Of a stretch of 64,000 nt of DNA, positions 1-63,508 are shown one piece after another. Location of the stretch: the NCBI GenBank assembly GCA_022823725.1, contig JAJEHL010000008.1, forward strand, positions 41,663 through 105,662, given 5' to 3'. The notes below the pieces were generated by a model that did not search any database, had not been told where the DNA came from, and saw nothing but the letters and a program-made list of their open reading frames with translations. Position numbers and translations under genes: made by a program. Each line of letters begins with the position of its first letter. Positions within the stretch are counted from its first letter, which is position 1. Origin of the DNA: Candidatus Latescibacterota bacterium (GTDB lineage: Bacteria; Latescibacterota; UBA2968).

Positions 1-1911
1 GTCTTACTTGTCAGCGGTGCTGAGGTTAATGCAAAGAATGATAAAGGCTTCACGCCGCTGGACGAGGCGCGCTTGAGAAATTGTTTTGAAGTTGTTGAGA
101 TCTTGCGTGCCAATGGTGGGATAAAAGGAGCCATTGCCATGACCAGGCACGACGAACTATATAGGGCTGTAAATAGCGGTGACCTGGAGGCAGTCAAAGT
201 CTTGCTTGCCAATGGTGCTGAGGTTAATGCCAGGGATGTTGATGGCGGCACGCCGCTACATTGGGCTACCTATTGGGGCCATACGAATACGAGGATTTTG
301 CAAGTCTTACTTGCCAATGGTGCTGAGGTTAATGCAAAGAATGATGATGGTACAACGCCACTAAATTTGGTTGCCTGGTACGGTGTTACAAAGGCAGTCA
401 AAGTCTTGCTTGCCAATGGTGCTGAGGTCAATGTAAAGGAGGACTGCATGCCGCTGCACCAGGCTGCCTATAATGGCCACATGGTGATAATAAAAATCTT
501 GCTTGCCAATGGCACTGAGGTTAATGCAAGGGACAGATTCAGTGAAACGCCGCTACATTGGGCTGCGAGGGCAGGCCAAAAGGAAGTCGTCGAATTCTTG
601 CTTGCCAACGGAGCTGAGGTCAATGTAAGGGATAAACTCGGTAGAACGCCGCTGCACGGGGTTGCCTATGAGGGCAAAAAGGAAGCCATTGAAGTCCTGC
701 TTGCCAATGGTGCTGAGGTCAATGCAAAGGATGCTGACGGCACTACGCCGCTCCACGATGCTGCTGCGAAGGCAGGCCAAAAGGAAGCAGTCAAATTCTT
801 GCTTGCCAATGGCGCAGATGTCAATGTAAGGGATGATGAAGGCAAAACGTCGCTAAATAGGGCAGCCGATAGTGGCCATCTGGATGTCGTCAAAGTCTTG
901 CTTGCTAATGGCGCAGATGTCAATGTAAAGGATGCTGACGGCGCTACGTCACTAAATAGGACAGCCAATAGTGGCCATCTGGATGTCGTCAAAGTCTTGC
1001 TTGCTAATGGCTCAGATGTCAATGTAAAGGATGCTGAACTCAGGACGCTACTCTGCCGGGTAGCCGGGAAAGGCGATACGGAATCCGTCAAAGTTTTGCT
1101 TGCCAATGGCGCAGATGTCAATGTAAGGGATGATGAAGGCAAAACGTCGCTAAATAGGGCAGCCAATAGTGGCCATCTGGATGTCGTCAAAATGTTGCTT
1201 ACTAATGGTGCAGATGTCAATGTAAAGGATGCTGAACTCAGGACGCTACTCTGCCGGGTAGCCGGGAAAGGCGATACGGAATCCGTCAAAGTTTTGCTTG
1301 CTAATGGCGCAGATGTCAATGTAAAGGATGGTGAAGGCAAAACGTCGCTAAATAGGGCAGCCGATAGTGGCCATCTGGATGTCGTCAAAATGTTGCTTAC
1401 TAATGGTGCAGATGTCAATGTAAAGGATGCTGAACTCAGGATGCTACTCTGCCGGGTAGCCGGGAAAGGCGATACGGAATCCGTCAAATTTTTAATTGTC
1501 AATGGTTTTGAGGTCAATGCACCGGATTATAGCGGCACTACGCCGCTCCACGAGGCAGCCTATTGGAGCCGTATGGATGTCGTCAAAGTTTTGCTTGCCA
1601 GAGGCGCAGATGTCAATGCCAGGGACAGATTCGGCGCTACGCCGCTACATAGGGTAGCCTATCGGAGCCGCATGGATGTCGTCAAAGTTTTGCTTGCCAG
1701 AGGCGCAGATGTCAATGTCAGGGACAGATTCGGCGCTACGCCGCTACATTGGACTGCGAGGGCAGGGAAAAAGGAAGCCATTGAAGTCTTGCTTGCCAGA
1801 GGCGCAGATGTTAATATAAAAAATAATGAGGGTGCAACGCCGCTACGCGAGGCTATGTTGAACGATCATAGTGAAACTATTTCTATCCTAATCGCCAACG
1901 GGGCTATGTGA
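1..1911 (+). CDS. Ankyrin-repeat protein, 5'-truncated by window edge (frame is open from base 1; internal SD+ATG at 139)
   Basis: Frame 1 is open from base 1 (VLLVSGAEVNAKNDKGFTPLDEAR...) through 1911; more than 15 ankyrin repeats (TPLHxAAxxGHxxVVKVLLANGADVN). AAAGGAG at 124-130 precedes ATG 139. Confidence 0.9.
   Translation, partial: VLLVSGAEVNAKNDKGFTPLDEARLRNCFEVVEILRANGGIKGAIAMTRHDELYRAVNSGDLEAVKVLLANGAEVNARDVDGGTPLHWATYWGHTNTRILQVLLANGAEVNAKNDDGTTPLNLVAWYGVTKAVKVLLANGAEVNVKEDCMPLHQAAYNGHMVIIKILLANGTEVNARDRFSETPLHWAARAGQKEVVEFLLANGAEVNVRDKLGRTPLHGVAYEGKKEAIEVLLANGAEVNAKDADGTTPLHDAAAKAGQKEAVKFLLANGADVNVRDDEGKTSLNRAADSGHLDVVKVLLANGADVNVKDADGATSLNRTANSGHLDVVKVLLANGSDVNVKDAELRTLLCRVAGKGDTESVKVLLANGADVNVRDDEGKTSLNRAANSGHLDVVKMLLTNGADVNVKDAELRTLLCRVAGKGDTESVKVLLANGADVNVKDGEGKTSLNRAADSGHLDVVKMLLTNGADVNVKDAELRMLLCRVAGKGDTESVKFLIVNGFEVNAPDYSGTTPLHEAAYWSRMDVVKVLLARGADVNARDRFGATPLHRVAYRSRMDVVKVLLARGADVNVRDRFGATPLHWTARAGKKEAIEVLLARGADVNIKNNEGATPLREAMLNDHSETISILIANGAM
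1030..1623 (+). repeat. 198-bp (two-ankyrin-unit) tandem repeats inside the first ankyrin gene
   Basis: GATGCTGAACTCAGGA(C/T)GCTACTCTGCCGGGTAGCC recurs at 1030, 1228 and 1426, i.e. an exact 198-bp period. Confidence 0.85.
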
Positions 1912-2118
1912 GGTCGGGAATGTAGTCCATACGACAGATCATTGTGATAAGTAGTGCATCGCAGCACAACGCAGTCATTTGGATGAATGTTCGCCAAACG
2001 CAACCACCGCACAAGCGTAGCACGGGATTACTTCACTGCAGTGCTTGGGTCTGTGCGGTGGTTATTTGTGATTGCTTTCGTAAGGTCAGTGAAGCAAATA
2101 AAAGGAGGATATGTATTG

Positions 2119-2457
2119 ATGAGCATTGAAAAGGATGAACGGGCGATATTGATCGCGCTTTACGACGCGACCGATGGGGCGAATTGGAATAACAATACGA
2201 ACTGGAAGACCGACAAACCCCTCAGTGAATGGCATGGTGTCCAGACCAATGATGCCGGACGAGTGACCGGGCTGAGGCTTGATTGGAACAGGTTATCGGG
2301 CTCGCTCCCTTCAGAATTAGGACAACTGACAAACCTGAAAAAACTGGGACTTTCTGACAATGAATTATCGGGTGCGATCCCCTCATCGTTGAGACAACTG
2401 AAAAACCTGAGAATACCGAGTCTTGATGGGAACACCAATCTGGATGTGTCGGCGTAG
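2119..2457 (+). CDS. Short leucine-rich-repeat protein (plant-type LRR, LSGxIPxxLxQLTNL)
   Basis: AAAGGAGG SD then ATG 2119; MSIEKDERAILIALYDATDGANWNNNTNWKTDKPLSEWHGV plus about 3 LRRs; paralog at 8020-8661. Confidence 0.8.
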   Translation: MSIEKDERAILIALYDATDGANWNNNTNWKTDKPLSEWHGVQTNDAGRVTGLRLDWNRLSGSLPSELGQLTNLKKLGLSDNELSGAIPSSLRQLKNLRIPSLDGNTNLDVSA

Positions 2458-2689
2458 GTTTCGGGTATATGGACGATGACCGTGTATCCGAAATCTCTAT
2501 ATTCTGGGGCGTGCTCTGTTTGTGCTGTTGTTTCGCTATAAAGCCAATAATTGGATCGAAAATGTTAGAAGGCCGCTCGGGTTGGCAGCCTGTGGCCTTC
2601 TGCCGCAACATACAGAGATGGGAACGGTGCTGCAAACCGCAACCCGCTCTACCTGAAATTTTTCCTGTTACAATTCAAAGGAGCGTACT

Positions 2690-3229
2690 ATGGCTTTTGA
2701 AGCTACGAGCGATTTTTCTATTCCCATTACGGACCAATTATATGATGAGATAATCGGGGCTTCCCTTATTGATTTTGAGACCGGCCATTTGATTCTTACA
2801 AGCGATGATATTGATTATGGGAACGAGATGCCAGCCGTTGAGTCAGAGTTAAAATATATGGATGAAACGCATGCATGTATTTTAGGAGAAGCCCTTTGTC
2901 GTATGGGTCGCGACAAAAATGTGGAATTGGTGTATGAGTACTCGCGTTTTAGATTGATGACAGATCCAAGAAAAAAAAGCTATCTCATAGTTAGAGAATT
3001 ATATCTCCTACCGGACGAAACCTGGGTTCTGAGAGCGCACAAAGGCGCAATAAATAATCCGAAAAAGATCGAATATTGGGAGATTGATGCCCGTAGTGCA
3101 AAAGCTTCTCTTGAACGAGAACTCCGAGACTTTGACTATAAATGGGAACAAGAACTCCGACCCTCTGGCTTTTTGATATGGAGTAGATGGAATTTGAAGG
3201 TCACAATTGACCTCTATTTTTCCGTCTGA
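2690..3229 (+). CDS. Hypothetical protein (179 aa)
   Basis: ATG with upstream AAAGGAG; no family recognised. Confidence 0.6.
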   Translation: MAFEATSDFSIPITDQLYDEIIGASLIDFETGHLILTSDDIDYGNEMPAVESELKYMDETHACILGEALCRMGRDKNVELVYEYSRFRLMTDPRKKSYLIVRELYLLPDETWVLRAHKGAINNPKKIEYWEIDARSAKASLERELRDFDYKWEQELRPSGFLIWSRWNLKVTIDLYFSV

Positions 3230-3286
3230 TCGGCCTTTGTTTATGTGCAACTAAAGCACTGATTAAAAAAGGAAAGGAGCAATGCC

Positions 3287-6200
3287 TTGAATGACACAAC
3301 AACCAACTTTGTATCCATAGAGAACGAAGCCAATCCAAAGGATACGCCTTTATACATGGCTATAGAGAAAGGCGACCTGGAGGCAGTTAAATGCTTGCTT
3401 GCCAGTGGTGCGGATGTCAATACAAAGAATCAATCTGGTAATACACCTCTCCATAAGGCTGCCGCAAGAGGCGATAAAGAAGCCATCAAATTACTGCTTG
3501 CCAGTGGTGCGGATGTCAATGCACGGGACAATGATGGCAATACGCCACTATGCGGGGCTGCCTTTTGGGGGTGTCTGAAAGCCGCCGAAGTGTTGCTTGC
3601 CGACGGAATTGAAGGCAATGCAGTTAGTGCAACAGATGATGTGGGTGAAATATTGCAGCACCGAGCGACCTGTTGGCGCGATCTGGACGCGGCGGAATTT
3701 CTGTTTTCTTACGGAGAAAATATCAGCGTAAAGGATGATGATGACAATACGCCGCTATACTGGACGACCTGTGAGAGCCACATGGAAGCGGTGGAATTAC
3801 TACTCGTCAGCGGTGCCGATGTCAATACACAGGATGATAAAGGCGATAAGCCGATATCTCTGGCTCCTCTGGAAGGAATGGTTGAAGCCATGGAAGTGTT
3901 GCTCACCAACGGCGCCGATGTCAATGTAAAAGGTGATAGTAGCAGAACGCCACTGCATTGGGTTAGCTATTGGGGCTACCTGGAAGCGGTGGAATTACTA
4001 CTCGTCAGCGGTGCCGATGTCAATACACGGGATGATAAAGGCTATACGCCGCTCGATATAGCTGCTTTGAGAGGCGACGCAGAATTGGTGAAATTACTGC
4101 TTGCCAGTGGTGCGGATGTCAAAGGTGATAGGAGCAGAACGCCACTGCACGAGGCTGCCAGTAGTGGCTGTGCGGAGGTGGTGAAGTTGCTGCTTGCCAA
4201 TGGTGTGGATGTAAAAGGTGATAGGAGCAGAACGCCACTGCACGAGGCTGCCAGTAGTGGCTGTGCGGAGGTGGTGAAATTACTGCTTGCCAATGGTGCT
4301 GAGGTCAATGTACGGACTGATTACGAACCCAGAACGCCGCTCAGCGAGGCCGCCTGTAGAGGTCACGCGGAGGTGGTGAAATTACTGCTTGCCAATGGTG
4401 CCGATGTCAATACAAAGAAAACGCTACTGCACGAAGTAGCATCCTGGGGGGATATGGAATCAATGAAGTTGTTGCTTATCAATGGTGCCGATGTCAATGC
4501 AAAGGATTGGCATGATAATACGCCACTGCACGAAGCCGCATCCTGGGGGCGAACAGAAGGAGTAGAAATGTTGCTTGAACACGGCGCTGACATCAATGCA
4601 AAGGATTATTTTGATAAAACGCCACTGCACGAAGCCGCATCCTGGGGGGATATGGAATCAGTGAAGTTGCTGCTTGCCAATGGTGCCGATGTCAATGCAA
4701 CAGCTAAATGGGGTGATACACCGATCCACCGATCTGTTAGTTCTGGGAAGGTTAAAATCCTGCAAGTGTTACTTGCTGCTGGTGGGGATGTCAATGCACG
4801 GAATGATTACGGCAATACGCCGTTACACTTGAGTGACGATATGGGCTACTTGAAATCTCTGCCGGTGTTACTTGCCGCTGGTGGGGATGTCAATGCACGG
4901 AATAATGACGGTGCAACACCACTACATGAGGTTGCCTGGATAGGCGACACAGAAGCGTTCAAAGTTCTGCTCGCCAATGGTGCTGAAGGCAATGCAGTGG
5001 ATAATTACGGCAAAACGCTGCTGCACAAGGCCGCAGAAGGAGGCGAAAAAGCATTCTTACAAGTGTTACTTGCTAATAGCACCGATGTTAATGTAAGGGA
5101 TGAGAGTGGTGAAACGCCGCTACACAAGGCCGCCTATAAGGGGTGCACAGAAGCCCTGGAAGTGTTGCTTGCCAACGGTGCCGATGTCAATGCAAGGGAC
5201 GAGAGTGGTGAAACGCCGCTACACAAGGCCGCCAGAGATCGGGAGATTGAAGTTGTGAAAGTGCTGCTTGTCACTGGTGCAGATGTGAATGCTCGGAATG
5301 ATGACGGCAACACGCCGTTGCACAACGCTGCCGGGCAAGGGGAGGTCGAATGCTTGAAAGTGTTGCTTGACAGCGGTGCTGAGGTCAATGCAACAAATAA
5401 TAGAGGTGACTCGCCATTATACAAGGCCGCAGAGAACGGAGAGTTTGAAGCTATGGAAGTGTTGTTTGCCAGCGGAGTTGGTGTCAATGCATGGGGTGCC
5501 GATGGCAATACGTTGCTACATAAGGCTGCTTCGAGAGGGGATGTTAAAGCCCTGCGGGCATTGCTTGACACTGGTGCGGAGGTCAATGTCCGAGATGCTG
5601 ACGACAATACCCCGCTTCACCGGGCAGCCATGGAAGGGAAGATTGAAGCTATAGAAGTGTTGGTTGCCGCTGGTGCTGAGGTGAATGCTGATGGGAATAT
5701 GAAGGCAGTCAAATTACTAATTGCCAGCGGTGCTGATGTCAGTGCAAAGGATGCTGATGGCAATACGCCACTCCACCGGGCAATCAATACTGGCGATATG
5801 GAAGCCGTTAAATTATTGCTTGCCAGCGGTGCGGATGTCAATGCAAAGGATGCTGATGGTAAAACGTTGCTCCATTGGGCTGCCTCAAATGACAAAACAG
5901 AAGTGGTCAAAGAGTTGCTTGCCCATGGCGCTGATGTCAATGTCAGGAACAGATTCGGCAAAACGTTGCTCCATTGGTTTGCCGGTCTGGGCCGCATGGC
6001 GGTCCTCAAAGAGTTGCTTGCCCATGGTGCTGATGTCAATGCAAAGGATCATTTTGATAGAACGCCGCTCCATTGGGCTGTCAGGTGGTGCCACAATCGG
6101 GATAAAAAAAGAAGAAAAAGGCAGCTTGAAGTTATGGAAGAGTTGCTTGCCCATGGTGCTGATGTCAATGTCAGGGACAGATTCGGCGAAACGCCGCTCC

Positions 6201-6364
6201 ATTGGGTTGCGAGGGCAGGGAAAAAGGAAGCCATTGAAGTCATGCTTGCCAGCGGTGCTGATGTCAATGCAAAGGATGATGGTGGTAAAACGCCGCTCCA
6301 CGAGGCTATGTTGAACGATCATAGTGAAGCCATTTCTATCCTGATCGCCAACGGGGCTAAGTGA
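3287..6364 (+). CDS. Large ankyrin-repeat protein (about 1025 aa)
   Basis: TTG start preceded by GGAAAGGAG; roughly 28-30 ankyrin repeats throughout. Confidence 0.92.
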   Translation: MNDTTTNFVSIENEANPKDTPLYMAIEKGDLEAVKCLLASGADVNTKNQSGNTPLHKAAARGDKEAIKLLLASGADVNARDNDGNTPLCGAAFWGCLKAAEVLLADGIEGNAVSATDDVGEILQHRATCWRDLDAAEFLFSYGENISVKDDDDNTPLYWTTCESHMEAVELLLVSGADVNTQDDKGDKPISLAPLEGMVEAMEVLLTNGADVNVKGDSSRTPLHWVSYWGYLEAVELLLVSGADVNTRDDKGYTPLDIAALRGDAELVKLLLASGADVKGDRSRTPLHEAASSGCAEVVKLLLANGVDVKGDRSRTPLHEAASSGCAEVVKLLLANGAEVNVRTDYEPRTPLSEAACRGHAEVVKLLLANGADVNTKKTLLHEVASWGDMESMKLLLINGADVNAKDWHDNTPLHEAASWGRTEGVEMLLEHGADINAKDYFDKTPLHEAASWGDMESVKLLLANGADVNATAKWGDTPIHRSVSSGKVKILQVLLAAGGDVNARNDYGNTPLHLSDDMGYLKSLPVLLAAGGDVNARNNDGATPLHEVAWIGDTEAFKVLLANGAEGNAVDNYGKTLLHKAAEGGEKAFLQVLLANSTDVNVRDESGETPLHKAAYKGCTEALEVLLANGADVNARDESGETPLHKAARDREIEVVKVLLVTGADVNARNDDGNTPLHNAAGQGEVECLKVLLDSGAEVNATNNRGDSPLYKAAENGEFEAMEVLFASGVGVNAWGADGNTLLHKAASRGDVKALRALLDTGAEVNVRDADDNTPLHRAAMEGKIEAIEVLVAAGAEVNADGNMKAVKLLIASGADVSAKDADGNTPLHRAINTGDMEAVKLLLASGADVNAKDADGKTLLHWAASNDKTEVVKELLAHGADVNVRNRFGKTLLHWFAGLGRMAVLKELLAHGADVNAKDHFDRTPLHWAVRWCHNRDKKRRKRQLEVMEELLAHGADVNVRDRFGETPLHWVARAGKKEAIEVMLASGADVNAKDDGGKTPLHEAMLNDHSEAISILIANGAK

Positions 6365-6443
6365 GGTCGGATGTAGTCCATACGACGGATCATTGTGATA
6401 AGTAGTGCATCACAGCACAACGCAGTTATTCAGTGTTTTTGGT

Positions 6444-6476
6444 CGTCATCGCGGCCTGATTCTATCCGCGATCCAG
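6444..6476 (+). repeat. Dispersed hairpin element, copy A
   Basis: CGTCATCGCGGCCTGATTCTATCCGCGATCCAG. Confidence 0.8.
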
Positions 6477-6560
6477 TGGTTTTGAACACAGAGACATGGC
6501 ACGCTTATTCCGCAATAAGTTGCGATATGTGATCAAACTTGAATGAAAGGAGCGAATGTC

Positions 6561-7820
6561 TTGAACGAGACAACCCCTCACTCTGTACATATGAGGAGCG
6601 AAGTCAATACAAAGGATGATTTTGGCAACAAGCTTTTATACAAGGCCGCAATGCAAGGCGGTCTGATAGTATTAAAAGACTTTCTTACCAGAGGCACGGA
6701 TGTCAATGCAAGATATGGACTGTTGGGCAAAACGCCGCTTCACGAGGTAGCCAATAGTGGCCATCTGATGGTCGTCAAAGCGTTGCTTGCTAGAGGCGCA
6801 GATGTCAATGTAAGGAACAGATTCGACGACACACCGCTGCACGAGGCAGCGGATAGTGGCCATTTGGCGGTTGTCAAAGTGTTGCTTGCCAATGGTGCAG
6901 AGGTCAATGTAAAGGATGATGGCCTTAGAACGCTACTCTGCCGGGTAGCCAGGGAAGGTGATATAGAATCCGTCAAATTTCTAATTATCAATGGTGTTGA
7001 GGTCAACGCACCGGACTATAGCGGTGCTACGCCGCTCCATGGAGCAGCTAATAGCGGCCATCTGGCGGTTGTCAAAGTGTTGCTTGCTAATGGCGCAGAG
7101 GTCAATGCTCCCAGCGATGTCTATTTCAGATTAAAGGATGATAAAGGTAGCACACCGCTGCACGAGGCAGTGGATAGTGGCCATCTGGCGGTTGTCAAAG
7201 TGTTGCTTGCTAATGGCGCAGAGGTCAATGCCAGGGATAGATTCGGTGCTACGCCGCTACATTGGGCTGCGAGGGCAGGGAAAAAGGAAACCATTGAAGT
7301 CTTGCTTGCCAGCGGATCCGAGGTCAATCTAAGGGATGCTGACTGTGCTACGCCGCTACAAAGGGCAGCCAATAGTGGCCATCTGGCGGTTGTCAAAGTG
7401 TTGCTTGCTAATGGCGCAGAGGTCAATGCCAGGGATGCTGATCTTAGAACGCTACTCTGCCGGGTAGCCAGGGAAGGCGATACGGAATCCGTCAAATTTC
7501 TAATTATCAATGGTGTTGAGGTCAATGCACCGGATTATAGCGGCACCACGCCGCTCCACGAAGCAATCAATAGTGGCCATCTGGCGGTCGTCAAAGCGTT
7601 GCTTGCCAATGGCGCGTATGTCAATGCCAGGGATAGATTCGGTGCTACGCCGCTACATTGGGCTGCGAGGGCAGGGAAAAAGGAAACCATTGAAGTCTTG
7701 CTCGCCAGCGGATCCGAGGTCAATATAAAAAATAATGAGGGTGCAACGCCGCTAAGCGAGGCTATGTTGAAAGCTCATAGTGAAGCCATTTCTATCCTGA
7801 TCGCCAACGGGGCTAAGTGA
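6561..7820 (+). CDS. Ankyrin-repeat protein
   Basis: Given ORF starts at 6543, but TTG 6561 (MNETTPHS) aligns with the paralogous MNDTTTNF start at 3287, in the same context AAAGGAGCnAATGnCTTGAAyGA. Confidence 0.9.
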   Translation: MNETTPHSVHMRSEVNTKDDFGNKLLYKAAMQGGLIVLKDFLTRGTDVNARYGLLGKTPLHEVANSGHLMVVKALLARGADVNVRNRFDDTPLHEAADSGHLAVVKVLLANGAEVNVKDDGLRTLLCRVAREGDIESVKFLIINGVEVNAPDYSGATPLHGAANSGHLAVVKVLLANGAEVNAPSDVYFRLKDDKGSTPLHEAVDSGHLAVVKVLLANGAEVNARDRFGATPLHWAARAGKKETIEVLLASGSEVNLRDADCATPLQRAANSGHLAVVKVLLANGAEVNARDADLRTLLCRVAREGDTESVKFLIINGVEVNAPDYSGTTPLHEAINSGHLAVVKALLANGAYVNARDRFGATPLHWAARAGKKETIEVLLASGSEVNIKNNEGATPLSEAMLKAHSEAISILIANGAK

Positions 7821-48142: not shown

Positions 48143-48172
48143 AAAAGAAACCATTTAGGGGAGAAATTGGCG

Positions 48173-48475
48173 ATGTTGACGAAAGAAAAAATCATAGATA
48201 TTCTCTCGGAAAACGGCTCGTATCTGGCGTCTGAATACGGGGTTAAGAAAATTGGTTTGTTTGGGTCTTATGCGAAAGGCACGGTCACTGAATCAAGTGA
48301 CATTGACCTTGTCGTGGAATTTGAACATCCGATAGGCTTTCGGTTCATTGAGTTTAGCGAATATCTCGAGGCTATCCTGGGCAAACGAGTAGATGTCCTG
48401 ACAGATGCTGGTATTCAAGGGATTAGGATTCCGCACGTTGCCGAGAATATCAAAGAAAGTATCGTGTATGTCTAA
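48173..48475 (+). CDS. mntA: MNT-domain nucleotidyltransferase antitoxin (MntA-like)
   Basis: GLFGSYAKGTVTESSDIDLVVEF matches GSx10DxD; overlaps hepT start (ATGTCTAA). Confidence 0.88.
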   Translation: MLTKEKIIDILSENGSYLASEYGVKKIGLFGSYAKGTVTESSDIDLVVEFEHPIGFRFIEFSEYLEAILGKRVDVLTDAGIQGIRIPHVAENIKESIVYV

Positions 48476-48842
48476 TCGAACAAAGATGGACTTTCTGAGC
48501 GATATTCGAGAAGCCGCACGGCGGATAAAAGTCTATACTACTGGCATGACGTATGAAACATTTTTGACGGATACGAGGACGCAGGATGCCGTGATACGCA
48601 ATCTGGAAATTATTGGGGAAGCAACTAAAAATTTATCTACAGAACTCCGCACTAAATATCCCAATGTCCCTTGGAAAAGTATGGCTGGCGTCAGGGACAG
48701 GCTTATTCATCATTATTTTGGTGTTAATTTTGATATTGTGTGGAACATTGTTATTGCCGAATTACCCGACGTTGTCTTACAAATTGAGGAAATCATACGC
48801 AATGAATCGGGAGTGTTTCACTTAACCAATGGAGGAATTTTA
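48468..48842 (+). CDS. hepT: HEPN-domain toxin (HepT-like); no stop codon before the downstream sulfatase frame (ORF continues to 50219)
   Basis: RDRLIHHY matches Rx4HxY; DUF86/HEPN pattern DFLSDIREAARRI...VIRNLEIIGEATKNLS...VPWKSMAGVRDRLIHHYFGVNFDIVWNIV. Confidence 0.85.
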
Positions 48843-50219
48843 ATGTCTGATTCGCGTCCGAATATTCTCTACATTATGTCTGATGATCATACTGTGAACG
48901 CCATTAGTTGTTATAACGGATGGCTGAATGAGGTGGTGGATACACCGAATATTGACCGCATCGCCAATGAGGGCATGCGGTTTAATAATTGTATTTGCAA
49001 TAATGCGCTGTGTTCGCCGAGCAGGGCGAGTATTATTACGGGGCAATACAGCCATAAAAATGGGGTGTTGCGGTTGAATCAACCGCTGAAAGACGATCAC
49101 CCCAATTTCGTGCGGCAGTTGCAGGCTTCCGGGTATCAAACGGGTATTGCGGGTAAGTGGCATCTGGGGTCTGATCCCGATGGGTTTGATTATTGGGAGG
49201 TGTTGCCGGGGCAGGGTGCTTATTTTGATCCGTCGTTTACGCGCAATGGCGAGCCAACGCAGTACGAGGGATATGCGACGGATATTATTACGGATTTGTC
49301 GCTCAATTGGTTGAAGGCGCGCGATCCGGATAAGCCTTTTTTGATGCTGTGCCATCACAAAGCGCCTCATGGTTTGTGGGAGTACGCGCCCCGTCATGCG
49401 GATTTGTTCACGGATGGAGATTTGCCCGAGCCGTCGAATTTGTATAAGCCGTTTGACAAGGTGTCCAGCGCGTTGGAGGATCACCACCGCACGATACTGA
49501 TGCAGGCCGAGCGGATGGATGAGGGCGTCCGGGGAAGAGCGTGGCCTACGGGGCGGCTGGATACGACGGGGATGAATACGACGGAGAAGATTCACGCGGC
49601 TTATCAGAAGTATGTGAAGGATTATTTGCGGTGTATTACGGCGATTGACGAGGGTGTGGGGCGGTTGTTGGATTTTCTGGATGAGGAGGGGTTGACGGAG
49701 AATACGATTGTGGTATATACGTCTGACCAGGGTATGTTTTTGGGCGAGCATTCGTATTTTGATAAGCGGTTAATTTTGGAGGAGTCGCTTCTGATGCCTT
49801 ATGTGATGCGGTATCCGAGGGCGATTGCGCCGGGTTCGGTGAATGAGGATATTGTGGTGAATGTGGATTTTGGTGCGACGTATCTCGATTTTGCCGGGTT
49901 GCAGCCCGAGGCAGAGGTACAGGGCAGAAGTTTTCGCGCGCTGTGCGAAGGGGAGACGATAGAGGATTGGCGGCAGTCGGCTTTTTATGCGTATTGGGAT
50001 GGGCCGACGAAGCACTATGGCGTGCGTACACAAAATTATACGCTTGCCGTACATCGAACCGGCGAGCGCGATTTGTTCGATTTGGAGAAAGATCCCTATG
50101 AGATGACGAGTGTGTACGGCGATCCAGCGTATGCCGATGTGCAGGCAGAGGTAGAAGGAGATCTGGCGCGGTTGATCGAGGAGATCGATATTAGTGCCGA
50201 GGAATTGCCGCAGGAGTGA
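48843..50219 (+). CDS. Sulfatase (FGly motif CSPSR), in frame with upstream HepT
   Basis: PNILYIMSDDHTVNAISCYNG...CNNALCSPSRASIITGQY...VVYTSDQGMFLGEH; own SD GGAGG and ATG 48843. Confidence 0.9.
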   Translation: MSDSRPNILYIMSDDHTVNAISCYNGWLNEVVDTPNIDRIANEGMRFNNCICNNALCSPSRASIITGQYSHKNGVLRLNQPLKDDHPNFVRQLQASGYQTGIAGKWHLGSDPDGFDYWEVLPGQGAYFDPSFTRNGEPTQYEGYATDIITDLSLNWLKARDPDKPFLMLCHHKAPHGLWEYAPRHADLFTDGDLPEPSNLYKPFDKVSSALEDHHRTILMQAERMDEGVRGRAWPTGRLDTTGMNTTEKIHAAYQKYVKDYLRCITAIDEGVGRLLDFLDEEGLTENTIVVYTSDQGMFLGEHSYFDKRLILEESLLMPYVMRYPRAIAPGSVNEDIVVNVDFGATYLDFAGLQPEAEVQGRSFRALCEGETIEDWRQSAFYAYWDGPTKHYGVRTQNYTLAVHRTGERDLFDLEKDPYEMTSVYGDPAYADVQAEVEGDLARLIEEIDISAEELPQE

Positions 50220-50222
50220 TGA

Positions 50223-50284
50223 GAAGTGTGATCCGCAGGCATGTCCCTGCGGATGTAAGCAGGGATGAACGCAGATAAAAAGAA
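50223..50284 (+). repeat. Extragenic repeat element, copy 1
   Basis: GAAGTGTGATCCGCAGGCATGTCCCTGCGGATGTAAGCAGGGATGAACGCAGATAAAAAGA, near-identical to 55199-55260. Confidence 0.85.
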
Positions 50285-50352
50285 GGCTGACTGCTGAAAG
50301 CTTGGGGCTGGGGGTAAGAGGGATGTGTGAAGGGTGAGGCCAATTGTTGTAG

Positions 50353-50372
50353 GGGCGAGGCCTGCCTCGCCC
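50353..50372. repeat. Perfect hairpin GGGCGAGGC-CT-GCCTCGCCC
   Basis: 9-bp perfect palindromic arms immediately abutting hairpin element copy B. Confidence 0.8.
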
Positions 50373-50404
50373 GTCATCGCGGCATGCTTAAAGCCGCGAT
50401 CCAG
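50372..50404 (+). repeat. Dispersed hairpin element, copy B
   Basis: CGTCATCGCGGCATGCTTAAAGCCGCGATCCAG. Confidence 0.85.
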
Positions 50405-50424
50405 ATTGCTAATAGCACGGAGAA

Positions 50425-50670
50425 ATGATGTCGGATGAACGGGATATTGTCGCAGCAGATGAATGGGATGCGGGACACATGGGGTGCGGCGAGGTTATTA
50501 TTTTGCTTAGAATGCGGATGCAAAAGCTCGAGGAGGGCGAGGTTTTGAAGCTTACGGCGTATGATCCTGGTGCGCCTGTTGATTTGCCCGCCTGGTGTCG
50601 CATGACGGGGCGGCGGATGGTTCGCGCGGATCACCCGTTTTACTGGATAGAAGAGAAACCAAAAGAGTAA
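50425..50670 (+). CDS. TusA-like sulfurtransferase-fold protein
   Basis: WDAGHMGCGEVIILLRMRMQKLEEGEVLKLTAYDPGAPVDLPAWCRMTGRRMVRADHPFYWI. Confidence 0.75.
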   Translation: MMSDERDIVAADEWDAGHMGCGEVIILLRMRMQKLEEGEVLKLTAYDPGAPVDLPAWCRMTGRRMVRADHPFYWIEEKPKE

Positions 50671-50680
50671 AGGAGTAAAA

Positions 50681-51043
50681 GTGGCTGGAAAATTCTGTGT
50701 TAGTTTGACTTGTGCGAAGGACGATACGGATAAAGCGACTGTGGCTTTTGTAGTTGCCAATGCCGCGCTGGGGTCGGAGAAGGAGACGCTCCTTTTTATG
50801 ACTACGGAGGGGGTTCGGCTTTCCCAGAAGGGCTATGCCGACGATGTGGCTGAGGAGGGCTTTTTGCCGCTGAAGGATCTTATGGATTTGTTTGTGGGTG
50901 GTGGTGGGACGATTTATGTGTGTGCGCCGTGTTTTAAGAAGCGCGGTTTGGATGAGGATAATCTAATTGATGGGGCGATTATGGTTGGGGGCGCTGCGCT
51001 GGTGGAGTTTCTTTCCGATGGGACGCCCTGTATTACGTATTAG
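50681..51043 (+). CDS. DsrE-family protein
   Basis: DDTDKATVAFVVANAALGSEKETLLFMTTEGVRLSQKG...GGTIYVCAPCFKKRGLDEDNLIDGAIMVGGAALVEFL. Confidence 0.78.
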   Translation: MAGKFCVSLTCAKDDTDKATVAFVVANAALGSEKETLLFMTTEGVRLSQKGYADDVAEEGFLPLKDLMDLFVGGGGTIYVCAPCFKKRGLDEDNLIDGAIMVGGAALVEFLSDGTPCITY

Positions 51044-51048
51044 GAGGT

Positions 51049-52551
51049 GTGTTGGAGGCGATAGAACGACACAAATATGCGCCTGATGTCAGTTTTGACG
51101 GTGGGGATTTGGATTGCGGTGGCGGTTTGTTATTGCTGATTCGCCGGCATATCGATCCGCTGGCGCGCGGTGGGTTGTTAGAGATTTTATCGACGGATGC
51201 GACGGTTGAGGTCGAGTTGCCCGCATGGTGTCGGTTGACGAGCAATGAGTTGGTATCGTGGACAAAGGTGGGACGGCAGCGCAGTTATCTCGTTTGCAAG
51301 GGTCCGTTTGAGGATCGCGGGCGGACTATGGCTCCTGTTGGGGAGCAGCTTAGGGTGGCGGTGACGATTCCCGAGTCGCTGCCCGGGCCTGCGCCCGCGC
51401 CGGGAATTGCGCCGTTGTCTGTTATGGGGATTGGGAGTTGGCCGCGTCCTCGCTGGATGCTGCAGGCTGTGCACGACCGGCTTGAGGGCAGGTTGGATGA
51501 CGCGGAGTTTCAGGCGACGGCGGATGACGCGGTGCGGCTTTGTATTGGCGCGCAGTCTCGCGCGGGGGTTGATGTGCTGACGGATGGGGAGCAGCGTCGG
51601 GATAGTTATGCGAGTTTTGTGGGTGGGTTGCTGGATAATTGCCAGCTTATTCCGCTGAGCGATTTGACGGCGATGGTGGATGATTCGGAGAAGTTCGAGA
51701 GGGAGTTGCGCGCGCTGGATGTTCCGGCGGCTGAGGTGCGGCATCCGGTGGTGTACGGCAAGTTGGGGAGGAGTCGTCCGCTGGCGGTTCACGAGTTTGA
51801 GTTTGCGAGTTCTTGTTCGGATAAGCCGGTGAAGGTGGCGCTGCCCGGGCCTTATTTGCTGACGCGTACGATGTGGCTGGATTGTCTCAGGGAGCGTCCG
51901 TACGAGTCGCGGGATGAACTGGCGCGGGATGTGGTGCGGGTGTTGCGGGAGGAGGTTCATTTTTTGCTGGCGGCGGGTGTTGCGCTGGTGCAGTTCGATG
52001 AGCCGGTTTTGACAGAGGTGGTTTTTGGGGGTGCGACGGGGAATCGCAGTTTTATGTGTGGGGCTTTGAGCGAGAAGTTAGAGGCTCCGGTGGAGCTCGA
52101 TTTTGCGGTCGGTTTGTTGAATGAGGTTGTGCGGGGTCTGCCGGGGGAGCGGTTGGGTTTGCATATTTGCCGGGGCAATTGGACGCGGGATGAGTCCGCG
52201 GCACTTTCCGGGGGTTATGGGTCGTTGATGGATGTGCTGAAGCGGGCGGATGTGGGGACGCTGTTTCTGGAGCTTTGCACCGATCGGGCAGGAGATGTGG
52301 ATGTGTTGAAAGCGGTTCCGGATGATAAGCGCGTGGGGGTTGGTGTGGCGAATCAGAAGCTGGATTCGGTGGAACTGGTGGAAGATATTCAGCGGCGAAT
52401 TTCAGAGGTGATCAATCTGTTTGGAGAAACGCGCGTTTTGCTGACGCCCGATTGCGGTTTTGCCACGTTCGCCGATAATCCCGTGGCTTCGGCAAATGTC
52501 GCAGAGGCAAAGCTGAAAGCGATTGTCGATGCGCGAGATTTGATCGGTTGA
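51049..52551 (+). CDS. Fusion: N-terminal TusA-like domain + C-terminal cobalamin-independent methionine synthase (MetE C-half)-like domain
   Basis: DCGGGLLLLIRRHIDPLARGGLLEILSTDATVEVELPAWCRLT (TusA-like) followed by MetE barrel with LGLHICRGNW (HxC), FLELCTDRAG (E), LLTPDCGF (DCG). Confidence 0.8.
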   Translation: MLEAIERHKYAPDVSFDGGDLDCGGGLLLLIRRHIDPLARGGLLEILSTDATVEVELPAWCRLTSNELVSWTKVGRQRSYLVCKGPFEDRGRTMAPVGEQLRVAVTIPESLPGPAPAPGIAPLSVMGIGSWPRPRWMLQAVHDRLEGRLDDAEFQATADDAVRLCIGAQSRAGVDVLTDGEQRRDSYASFVGGLLDNCQLIPLSDLTAMVDDSEKFERELRALDVPAAEVRHPVVYGKLGRSRPLAVHEFEFASSCSDKPVKVALPGPYLLTRTMWLDCLRERPYESRDELARDVVRVLREEVHFLLAAGVALVQFDEPVLTEVVFGGATGNRSFMCGALSEKLEAPVELDFAVGLLNEVVRGLPGERLGLHICRGNWTRDESAALSGGYGSLMDVLKRADVGTLFLELCTDRAGDVDVLKAVPDDKRVGVGVANQKLDSVELVEDIQRRISEVINLFGETRVLLTPDCGFATFADNPVASANVAEAKLKAIVDARDLIG

Positions 52552-52561
52552 GGAGATGATA

Positions 52562-52966
52562 ATGTCAGATGTGTTGAGGTTTATCACGCAAGGCGATGTG
52601 CAGGTGGAGGAGTTGCCGTGGGGTCCGCATGAGTGGATCAGTCGGGAGGGGTTGACGGAGGCGGATCATTTGTTGCTGGTACGGGTGACGATGCCGCCGG
52701 GCAAGGCGCACGCGTTTCATCGCCATCCGTGTATGGAAGAGATTATTTATGTGGTTGCGGGAATAGCGGAACAGTGGGTGGATAGGGAGTCGCAAATTCT
52801 GGGTCCGGGAGATGCGGCGCATATTCCGATGGATATGGTGCATGGGACTTATAATGCCGGGGATGAGGATCTGGTTTTTCTGGCGATTTTGTCTCCTGCT
52901 AAATTCGATGGTGAGGTGCTGGTCGATGTGTCGGGGGATGAACCGTGGGTCAATATGAGAGGTTAG
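52562..52966 (+). CDS. Cupin-domain protein
   Basis: MPPGKAHAFHRHPCMEEIIYVVAGIAEQWVDRESQILGPGDAAHIPMDMVHGTYN. Confidence 0.88.
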   Translation: MSDVLRFITQGDVQVEELPWGPHEWISREGLTEADHLLLVRVTMPPGKAHAFHRHPCMEEIIYVVAGIAEQWVDRESQILGPGDAAHIPMDMVHGTYNAGDEDLVFLAILSPAKFDGEVLVDVSGDEPWVNMRG

Positions 52967-52968
52967 AG

Positions 52969-54423
52969 ATGGCAAATACACGTCCAAATATTGTTTATAT
53001 TCTCGCTGATGATATGGGCTATGGCGATGTGGGGTGCTATAATCCACATTCGAAGATTCCCACGCCGTATATGGATCGGTTGGCGAGTGAGGGAATGCGG
53101 TTTACAGATGCACATTCGCCTTCGGCGGTGTGTACGCCCACGCGATACGGGATTTTGACCGGGCGTTATTGCTGGCGCACCGAATTGAAGAGCCATGTGT
53201 TGTTCAATTACGAATGGCCGTTGATTGAACCCGAGCGCGTGACGGTGGCTTCTTTGTTGAAAAGATGTGGATATCACACGGGGTGTTTTGGCAAGTGGCA
53301 TTTGGGTTTGGGCTGGGGTGTGAAGGATGGCGAGGTGTTTGATTTTGATCAGCCCCTGCCCTGGCCGGGTGGATCACCCGATCCGGTGGAGGAAGATAAG
53401 ATTGATTTTTCAAAGCCGATTGCGGGGGGACCGATTGAGCTGGGATTTGACAGGTTTTATGGGACATCGGGTTGTTCGACGGCGCAGCCGCCTTATTGTT
53501 TTATCGATCAGGATCAGACGGTGGGTATTCCGAGTGTGCAAAAGCCGGTTGAGATGGCGGGTGGTCGGCGCGGGTTGATGGTTCCGGATTGGGACCACAA
53601 GGAAGCGGATCCGGCTTTTACGGAGAAGGCTGTGGCGTATATTGAGGAGCGGGCAGGAGATGCGGATACGCCTTTTTTTCTTTATCTGGCGGCTTCTGCG
53701 CCGCATGAACCGTGTACGGTCGAATGTGTGCCGGAGTTTTTGCGCGGTGCGAGTGAGGCGGGTCCCCGGGGGGATATGGTCGCGCTGTTTGACTGGATGG
53801 TGGGGCAGGTGATGGATGCGCTGGATCGCTGTGGTTTGGCGGATGATACGCTGGTTATTGTGACGAGTGATAATGGGGCGTTGCCCGGATGTAATGGTCG
53901 CACGTATGGTCATAAGTCCTGTGGTGATTGGCGCGGTTTTAAGGGGTTTATCTGGGAGGGAGGACACAGAGAGCCGTTTATCGCGCGCTGGCCGGGGGTT
54001 GTTGCGCCCAATTCGGTTTGCGATGCGCTGGTCGGATTGCAGGATTTTATGGCGACTGTGGCGGATATTGTGGGGGAGACGCTTCCAGAAGATGCGGGTG
54101 AAGATAGTGCGAGTTTTTTGCCTGTGTTGATGGGTGAGGCTGAGCTTGTTCGGGATGATTTGATACACCATTCCTGCATGGGGGTGTTTTCGATTCGGCG
54201 AGGGGATTGGAAGTTGATTGTCGATTGCGATAATTCCGGAGATATGGGGCGCGGCGTGGATGGGTGTGTGGGCACGGGTCCTGTGCCGGGGTCAAGGGGT
54301 CAGTTGTATCATATGGGAGATGATCCGTTTGAGTCGTATAATCAGTTTAATCAGAAACCGGGTATTGTGCGCGAGTTCAGGGAGATGGTTGAGCGGTATA
54401 TAGCAGATGGAAGGAGTGTGTGA
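52969..54423 (+). CDS. Sulfatase (FGly motif CTPTR)
   Basis: PNIVYILADDMGYGDVGCYNP...HSPSAVCTPTRYGILTGRY...VIVTSDNGALPG. Confidence 0.92.
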   Translation: MANTRPNIVYILADDMGYGDVGCYNPHSKIPTPYMDRLASEGMRFTDAHSPSAVCTPTRYGILTGRYCWRTELKSHVLFNYEWPLIEPERVTVASLLKRCGYHTGCFGKWHLGLGWGVKDGEVFDFDQPLPWPGGSPDPVEEDKIDFSKPIAGGPIELGFDRFYGTSGCSTAQPPYCFIDQDQTVGIPSVQKPVEMAGGRRGLMVPDWDHKEADPAFTEKAVAYIEERAGDADTPFFLYLAASAPHEPCTVECVPEFLRGASEAGPRGDMVALFDWMVGQVMDALDRCGLADDTLVIVTSDNGALPGCNGRTYGHKSCGDWRGFKGFIWEGGHREPFIARWPGVVAPNSVCDALVGLQDFMATVADIVGETLPEDAGEDSASFLPVLMGEAELVRDDLIHHSCMGVFSIRRGDWKLIVDCDNSGDMGRGVDGCVGTGPVPGSRGQLYHMGDDPFESYNQFNQKPGIVREFREMVERYIADGRSV

Positions 54424-61606: not shown

Positions 61607-63508
61607 ATGTCTATTCCAGATCAAAGTCATATTAATCAGGTCCGCGATGCTCTCTGGCAACGTTCAAGTGGTGCGTCCGTTATGATTGGGAGCGGTTTTA
61701 GTAGAAACGCCCTGAAATGCCGACCGAATGCAGAAGATCCTCCGTCATGGCAGGAGGTAGCAAAAGCGGTATATGAGAAGCTATATCCACAAGCTGATAA
61801 TAGGGAGTACCCGACTTTAGCAGAGGCGTCAACAACGAGTGGCTTTTTGAGATTGGCCCAGGAGTATAAGGTCGCATTTGGGCGAAGTGACCTTCACCAG
61901 TTCATCAAACAAGTGGTCCGGGACGAGGATTTCGCGCCAGGAGATATGCATAAACGGCTTATGCGCCTCCCCTGGCGCGACGTCTTTACCACTAACTGGG
62001 ATACGCTCTTAGAGAAGACACGCTCTTTCGTGGCTGACCACGCCTATAGCGTCGTGCAAAACATGGATGAAATCCCGCTGGCTGCCCAACCGCGTATCGT
62101 TAAGTTACACGGTTCCTTGCCTGCACATTTTCCGCTCATCTTTACGGAGGAGGATTACCGTACCTATCCGACGAAATTTGCGCCGTTTGTGAACACGGTC
62201 CAACAAGCAATGATGGAAACCGCGTTTTGTCTAATAGGTTTCTCTGGTGATGATCCAAATTTCCTAGAATGGTCCGGATGGGTTCGCGACAATCTGGGAA
62301 CATCGGCTCCAAAGATATATCTGGCCGGATGGTTGGACTTGTCGTCACACCGTCGTCGTATGCTTGAAGATCGCAACGTTGTTCCTATTGATCTTGCTCA
62401 TCATCCAAGAGCGAGCGAGTGGCCGGAGCACTTGCGTCATCAATACGCAACGGAGTGGATCCTCCACACATTGAAACGAGGACAACCTTATGATGTTTCA
62501 GAGTGGCCAGAGCCATCAAGCCGACAACATTGGGCAGTGCCGGAAAAACTGCAACCTGTCGAAGAGGTTGTTTCCGATATACCTAAAGACGAACCACATG
62601 CGCCACCATTTAGTAGTGACTCGGAGAATTTACAAGACTCCGTAGTTCATATCCTAAATGTTTGGAATCACAATAGAAAAATATACCCAGGTTGGATAGT
62701 TGCGCCCGCAAGTGTGCTTCAATCCCTGCATTATCGCACTAAAGAATGGGAACCGCTAATATTACATGTGATTTCCAATTTTGAACCGATAGAACGGCTA
62801 AAGGCCATTCAAGAATTAATATGGCGACGAGAGATCATGTTGGACTCGGTCTATCCTGATCTCGAAGAATTATCCCAAAAGACCTTGGATGAAATAAATT
62901 GTCAAGACCGAAAAATTAATGGTGTTGACAATCCAAGTGTTGACTGGAAAGCGGTACGGGAGGCATGGCGTAATGTTGCGGTCGCATTGGTAACGATAGC
63001 ACGGCTTCGATTTGATCGCGAAGTGTTCGAAAAACGACTTAACGCATTAGAACCTTTCCGGCAAGACCATCCTGATATTGATCAGAGAATGCACCATGAA
63101 CAATGTCTTTGGGCGATTTATTCGCTTAATTTCGAGACATTGGAAAAATTGCTTGGAGCCTGGCAGACTGAAGGCTACGATCCCGCGTGGAAAATAAGAA
63201 AAGCCGCCTTGCTTATCGAAACGAATCGAAATGATGATGCATTTCAACTTATCAACCGTGCGCTTTCGACTATTCGTGAGAATCCCGGAGATGGTCGCAG
63301 TGTGGTTGGCCCTTCATGTGAAGGTTGGGCATTATGGCTTGCACTCCCATTTGAACGAGAATTTGGAGGGCCGAGTGAAAATCTAATTGATTCTCCTCCA
63401 GCCTTCGAGAGATGGCGGAAGTTGGCACGCTTGAAGTGTGACGCCTTTGCAGAGAAACTTTATTACGTTGAAAAAATAAAAGGCAACCGAGAAAAAAAAG
63501 GTCAATAA
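61607..63508 (+). CDS. SIR2-domain (SIR2_2-like) protein with helical C-terminal region; candidate defence effector
   Basis: VMIGSGFSRNA, WRDVFTTNWDTLLE, IVKLHGSLPAHFPLIFTEEDYR, AFCLIGFSGDDPNFLEW. Confidence 0.85.
   Translation: MSIPDQSHINQVRDALWQRSSGASVMIGSGFSRNALKCRPNAEDPPSWQEVAKAVYEKLYPQADNREYPTLAEASTTSGFLRLAQEYKVAFGRSDLHQFIKQVVRDEDFAPGDMHKRLMRLPWRDVFTTNWDTLLEKTRSFVADHAYSVVQNMDEIPLAAQPRIVKLHGSLPAHFPLIFTEEDYRTYPTKFAPFVNTVQQAMMETAFCLIGFSGDDPNFLEWSGWVRDNLGTSAPKIYLAGWLDLSSHRRRMLEDRNVVPIDLAHHPRASEWPEHLRHQYATEWILHTLKRGQPYDVSEWPEPSSRQHWAVPEKLQPVEEVVSDIPKDEPHAPPFSSDSENLQDSVVHILNVWNHNRKIYPGWIVAPASVLQSLHYRTKEWEPLILHVISNFEPIERLKAIQELIWRREIMLDSVYPDLEELSQKTLDEINCQDRKINGVDNPSVDWKAVREAWRNVAVALVTIARLRFDREVFEKRLNALEPFRQDHPDIDQRMHHEQCLWAIYSLNFETLEKLLGAWQTEGYDPAWKIRKAALLIETNRNDDAFQLINRALSTIRENPGDGRSVVGPSCEGWALWLALPFEREFGGPSENLIDSPPAFERWRKLARLKCDAFAEKLYYVEKIKGNREKKGQ

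Follow-up and report, generated by a model that had tools for sequence, protein, structure and literature searches.

A conserved gene trio encoding TusA-like, DsrE-family and TusA-MetE' fusion proteins with a probable role in selenium supply

It is still an open question how cells capture trace amounts of selenium and pass it to the selenophosphate synthase SelD while avoiding free selenide, which is toxic. According to recent papers, a dedicated or high-affinity selenium transporter has yet to be identified (PMC11097638, PMC9312934). Several described systems touch on parts of this problem. YedF, a fusion of a SirA/TusA and a DsrE domain (TIGR03527), is a SelD-linked carrier candidate (PMC5322559, PMC2432076). 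In Methanococcus maripaludis, selenium starvation induces TusAD and SdmABC, and the TusAD transcripts rise about 4.5 log2-fold upon selenium depletion (PMC11097638). SdmABC and the type I mlp gene clusters (type I MGC) belong to the UroD superfamily and are proposed to act in methyl-selenide demethylation, with possible recycling of the methyl group into methionine (PMC11097638, PMC10418091).

We analyzed a stretch of 64,000 nucleotides from a Candidatus Latescibacterota bacterium (contig JAJEHL010000008.1, positions 41,663 to 105,662), hereafter the window. An ORF check of the window confirmed three co-directional and near-abutting genes at 50425-52551, separated by gaps of 10 and 5 bp. Their features, together with the gene that follows them, are:

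50425..50670, + strand: TusA1, a stand-alone TusA-like protein of 81 aa (Pfam PF01206)
50681..51043, + strand: DsrE-family protein of 120 aa with a CxPC pair, Cys81/Cys84 (Pfam PF02635)
51049..52551, + strand: TusA-MetE' fusion of 500 aa (Pfam, AlphaFold model, Foldseek, alignment)
51049..51300, + strand: N-terminal TusA-like domain of the fusion, approximately residues 1-84 (AlphaFold secondary structure)
51115-51117, + strand: codon of the invariant Cys23 of the fusion's TusA domain (82 sequences)
51418..52548, + strand: MetE' (core methionine synthase-like) zinc barrel, approximately residues 124-500 (Pfam Meth_synt_2, Foldseek)
51436..51999, + strand: homocysteine-binding residues S130 (51436), E181 (51589) and D317 (51997) (alignment to 3rpd)
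52057..52059, + strand: Cys337, a family-specific invariant Cys that is an in-frame UGA in two Planctomycetota homologues (alignment)
52162..52455, + strand: zinc ligands H372 (52162), C374 (52168), E408 (52270) and C469 (52453) (alignment)
52556..52966, + strand: small cupin (Cupin_2) of 136 aa, 4 bp downstream of the fusion (Pfam)

The two small proteins are readily assigned to their families. TusA1 scores 33.3 bits against the Pfam TusA cut-off of 28.6 (4e-8), and its Cys21, within a GCG motif, is conserved in 100% and Cys58 in 99% of 76 aligned sequences. The DsrE protein reaches 49.2 bits against a cut-off of 22.7 (7e-13), with Cys81 and Cys84 each at least 99% conserved among 84 sequences. 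For the N-terminal domain of the fusion the Pfam TusA match (residues 28-77, 2e-4) lies under the curated cut-off. Two results support this call: an AlphaFold model built from 47 relatives (mean pLDDT 88), in which residues 14-83 adopt the beta-alpha-beta-alpha-beta-beta pattern of TusA, and matches to structures of E. coli TusA in a profile comparison. The CPxP motif is absent from both TusA1 and the fusion's TusA domain; both carry CGxx with an invariant Cys and were therefore filed as TusA-like rather than as TusA sulfurtransferase.

The C-terminal part of the fusion matches Pfam Meth_synt_2 (6e-29), and its best Foldseek match is the core methionine synthase 3rpd (target TM 0.81), to which it shows only about 22% identity in the structural alignment. 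The fusion does not have the two-barrel architecture of MetE (about 750 aa): the MetE N-terminal half is missing, and the score on TIGR01371 (MetE) is 76 bits against a cut-off of 930. No variation was seen among 82 relatives at H372, C374, E408 and C469, which correspond to the zinc ligands H641, C643, E665 and C726 of E. coli MetE (PMC7857596). Likewise, S130, E181 and D317 are invariant in the fusion relatives and equivalent to E. coli MetE S433, E484 and D599, whose functional roles are described in the same paper (PMC7857596). Thus all seven zinc and homocysteine-binding (Ser/Glu/Asp) residues of the core methionine synthases (MesA-D) are present and, as the zinc ligands and homocysteine residues are all invariant, the barrel probably binds homocysteine on zinc.

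The initial annotation of this DNA had described three consecutive co-directional genes encoding a TusA-like protein, a DsrE protein with retained Cys and a protein joining a second TusA-like domain to a MetE-like C-terminal barrel that keeps the zinc ligands and lacks the MetE N-terminal half. Each of these points was borne out by the above analyses, and its view that a chalcogen carrier is linked to a methyltransferase of the thiol type stands. The observation holds, and it exceeds what chance would give. The literature searched held no described combination of TusA, DsrE and methionine synthase and no family with this fusion.

The cupin gene adjoins the fusion only in Latescibacterota loci (L001, L002, L081-L084), and for this reason it is probably not core to the module, maybe a lineage-specific addition. 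An Rfam scan of 49500-53500 gave no match. Elsewhere in the window, Pfam places at 48167-50219 an MNT nucleotidyltransferase ORF and, after it, a 604-aa ORF in which a HepT-like domain runs in frame and without a stop into a sulfatase; the latter is either a true HepT-sulfatase fusion or contains an unnoticed gene boundary. Sequence inspection alone indicates tandem long ORFs (425-1025 aa) of ankyrin-type repeats at 73-7820 and a protein with a SIR2-like (defence-type) N-terminus at 61607-63508.

A single scan of species-level genomes yielded 371 fusion relatives, of which the best 80 were kept. Of these best 80 of 371 loci, 77 have DsrE and 69 have a separate TusA, in agreement with the anticipated co-occurrence of the three genes across phyla. 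Besides the window's own phylum, they come from Chloroflexota, Acidobacteriota, Verrucomicrobiota, Planctomycetota, Binatota, Rokuibacteriota, Melainabacteria and Alpha- and Betaproteobacteria. Given this conservation across many phyla, the trio is, as judged from sequence comparison, a real conserved module. In Planctomycetota a split form occurs, consisting of DsrE, a TusA-OsmC protein and a separate MetE'; the OsmC part matches the NCBIfam entry 'OsmC-related (seleno)protein' below its cut-off. The nearest relatives of the window genome are L001 and L002 (97%), and the tree places the window protein with two sequences from Latescibacterota, nested in a clade dominated by Chloroflexota. This nesting suggests horizontal transfer. 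A MetE' homologue of a different setting (L115, G021:C36) stands with an Rv1680-like substrate-binding protein (SBP), OsmC, an acyl-CoA dehydrogenase-like protein and a SelA-like PLP enzyme; the cluster recalls Mycobacterium Rv1680/Rv1681, and Rv1681 is weakly matched by the TusA domains of the window trio.

The genomes that carry the fusion share genes of selenium metabolism. Of 50 fusion genomes, 48 have selD, 40 have selA and all 50 have one or the other. The ten without selA, all betaproteobacterial, have selD together with the gene for the selenouridine synthase YbbB (ybbB). Because of these hosts we rejected a function in selenocysteine use only: the module tracks SelD, not one end use. 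Among Alphaproteobacteria, in which selD is present in 73/376 genomes (19%), the fusion was found in 3/376, all of them selD-positive (p=0.007), and three further alphaproteobacterial genera from a scan independent of selD were selD-positive as well (6/6 in total). Planctomycetota with a fused or split MetE' carry selD in 33/37 cases compared to 131/209 of the others (p=0.0008); for full fusions alone there was no selD enrichment (9/11 vs 155/235, p=0.23), and two carriers (G381 and G451, genomes of unstated completeness) gave no selD match. The background matters here. In Burkholderiaceae selD is already present in 127/146 genomes (87%), and its enrichment in that family was set aside as uninformative. 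The background in Planctomycetota is 164/246 (67%), selA is near-universal in the window's class, and the window's Latescibacterota genome itself has selA with selB beside it. As selD or selA are common there anyway, the co-occurrence is informative mainly outside Burkholderiaceae, Planctomycetota and the window's class. Comparative genomics makes for a strong link to selenium, and the trio is very probably a selenium module.

A further line of evidence comes from Cys337, which is also kept in the split MetE' forms; a generic MetE-like paralogue encoded in the same genome lacks an equivalent residue. The split MetE' of two Planctomycetota (G298 and G430) carries an in-frame TGA exactly at this position (FMUGVL), and dN/dS is about 0.11 in both the 5' and the 3' part relative to the UGA. 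The SelD of G298 is of the Sec type, with a UGA at its own active site; G430 gave no selD match. Hairpins 3' of the UGA are similar in the two genomes, but in a SECIS check they folded no better than shuffled sequences. A UGA at an invariant Cys position with normal coding constraint afterwards is what a selenoprotein usually shows, and the UGA-bearing MetE' is a probable selenoprotein of a previously unrecognised family.

In most loci sel genes are not adjacent to the module, but adjacency is seen in more than one lineage, namely in Verrucomicrobia, Paracoccus and Chloroflexota. On a Paracoccus ferrooxidans megaplasmid (L102), a divergent cysteine desulfurase gene is followed by tusA, dsrE, two hypotheticals, the fusion, selA and trxB. 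This selA starts 78 bp after the fusion and is bona fide (565 bits vs a cut-off of 268), and the same 19-kb stretch holds tRNA-Sec and a UGSC-family selenoprotein within about 8 kb of the fusion; the latter (1408-3065) is read through an in-frame TGA and is annotated as two fragments in the record. The UGSC selenoprotein adjoins a 363-aa companion of no known family. In a verrucomicrobium (L027), DsrE, the fusion, a 69-aa gene, selB, selA, a selD fusion and tRNA-Sec lie within about 6 kb, and in Chloroflexota selB is found a few kb upstream of the fusion in one clade and downstream of it in L073. Two other genes recur in the neighbourhoods: a second, different DsrE-family protein in betaproteobacteria (L019, L033, L036, L039, L045, L048, L056, L062, L063, L068) and an exported transglutaminase-like protein (L035, L041, L047, L074, L078, L102, L121).

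The initial annotation had proposed a sulfur relay in organosulfur metabolism and had taken the surrounding sulfatase cluster as functional context. That cluster proved to be a feature of the window's own genus only, so we dropped it as a guide to function, and the sulfur reading gave way to the selenium genes that accompany the trio elsewhere, with all 50 hosts carrying selD or selA and two split homologues being apparent selenoproteins. In its fuller form, this alternative takes the trio as a sulfur relay with a thiol methyltransferase serving organosulfur or methionine metabolism and the selenium genes as present by chance or through a shared lifestyle. TusA and DsrE are classic sulfur carrier families, the methionine synthase core residues are intact, and six Binatota-type loci have homologues of metX, metY and metW upstream of the module. 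These six loci, however, form a single lineage in the tree, and with these neighbours confined to it a direct role in methionine biosynthesis was dropped. The 50/50 count, the adjacency to selA, selB, selD and tRNA-Sec and the UGA at Cys337 also speak against the sulfur alternative, which we regard as improbable.

Genes of a phosphonate-type ABC transporter lie in the cluster at 15/80 loci, usually between dsrE and the fusion. Selenite shares its pyramidal three-oxygen geometry with phosphite, and this match makes selenite a candidate ligand. In the proteobacterial clusters the transporter SBP is closest to HtxB (2.8e-74), and the substitutions N128S, F158H and M176F/Y are present in 13/13 SBPs while W52, Y97, R178 and D206 are kept. 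N128S/F158H/M176F(Y) are the hallmark of an HtxB-like subfamily in which the pocket is larger and an additional histidine sits close to the ligand (PMC6629693). Whether this HtxB-like transporter is an importer of a selenium oxyanion (selenite or methylseleninate) is in our judgement evenly balanced. In other proteobacteria (L019, L042, L062, L065 and L102) the transporter slot is filled instead by a membrane protein of about 168 aa with a conserved Cys and an exported, C-terminally anchored protein of about 520 aa. Neither had a Pfam or NCBIfam match when tested in L102, and the structure model of the 522-aa exported protein (pLDDT 45) was too poor for a fold call; the pair is a possible alternative selenium uptake system.

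Importer-type genes inside the cluster also bear on selenium detoxification, in which the fusion would methylate excess selenide to volatile methylselenides. A zinc site of the MetE type activates thiols or selenols as methyl acceptors, and selenium is known to be detoxified by methylation (PMC11097638). Yet the cluster encodes apparent import, the genomes associated with the module are ones that use selenium, and the module lacks any known methyl donor domain, which together render detoxification very improbable.

We propose instead that the trio acquires selenium and supplies SelD, be it for selenocysteine or for tRNA selenouridine; a role in delivery or salvage toward SelD appears likely. 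TusA1 and DsrE would carry reduced selenium as protein-bound S-Se species, as is suspected of YedF and TusAD. The fusion may move a methyl group from a methylated selenium species to homocysteine, with the selenium staying on the TusA cysteine, and in the selenium context such a species is the most economical methyl donor. The conserved homocysteine residues do not establish that the reaction runs as a demethylation. Taken separately, methyl transfer to homocysteine by the fusion falls a little short of an even chance, and for the module as a whole we lean slightly towards a selenium supply or salvage route that includes a methyl-transfer step. Where present, the HtxB-like transporter would import the selenium oxyanion. 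Tentative is the most specific version of this proposal, a dedicated import-and-salvage pathway in which a high-affinity HtxB-like importer feeds a corrinoid-free TusA-MetE' demethylase that uses Cys/Sec337 in catalysis, passes the methyl group to homocysteine and hands protein-bound selenium to SelD.

The module might also serve selenium without any methyl chemistry. The zinc/homocysteine site of MetE' or Cys337 would then only reduce or shuttle selenium, for instance from selenotrisulfides formed with imported selenite, via TusA to SelD. The transporter pocket suits an inorganic oxyanion, a position held by Sec or Cys hints at chalcogen chemistry of a redox or nucleophilic type, and TusA and DsrE are carriers. 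If no amino-acid thiol is bound, though, the invariant homocysteine residues and zinc ligands are left unexplained, and we consider this alternative unlikely.

In a selenium supply module of this kind there are candidates for the carriers, the enzyme and the importer, and they occur in genera that can be cultivated, among them Paraburkholderia, Duganella and Paracoccus; the module also predicts a MetE-like selenoprotein. Proteins annotated as 'methionine synthase' or 'sulfurtransferase TusA' in genomes with the module are probably selenium proteins. If the import-and-salvage reading is true, it would provide a selenium transporter as well as a new methionine-forming selenium demethylase and selenoprotein family. 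The parts are of known kinds, but the literature searched contained neither their combination nor the MetE-like probable selenoprotein nor the transporter candidate.

Compared with the known systems, the barrel resembles the core methionine synthases MesA-MesD (3rpd is MesD), which share its zinc and homocysteine residues and likewise consist of the folate-free catalytic half of MetE (PMC7857596). It differs from them in that MetE' is fused or adjacent to TusA/OsmC and DsrE, carries Cys337 (Sec in some) and stands in a selenium gene context. The module SBP matches HtxB and shows the HtxB-like pocket substitutions (PMC6629693), but its ligand would be a selenium oxyanion, as we infer, rather than hypophosphite. 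With SdmABC and the type I mlp clusters the module shares zinc methyltransferases of a superfamily that contains MetE, clustered or co-occurring with Sec machinery; theirs are corrinoid-dependent, MtaA-like and described for anoxic settings, whereas the window enzyme joins a MetE-like barrel to a TusA carrier. An unsystematic reading of module neighbourhoods revealed no corrinoid gene. In YedF, as in the window, TusA and DsrE domains are tied to SelD-dependent selenium use, and TIGR03527 (YedF) was not among the NCBIfam matches up to E=1. YedF is one protein with CPxP and no methyltransferase, whereas the window encodes TusA (with CGxx) and DsrE separately and, in addition, a TusA-MetE' protein. 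The logic of YedF, SdmABC and the type I MGC is common with that of the trio, the proteins are not.
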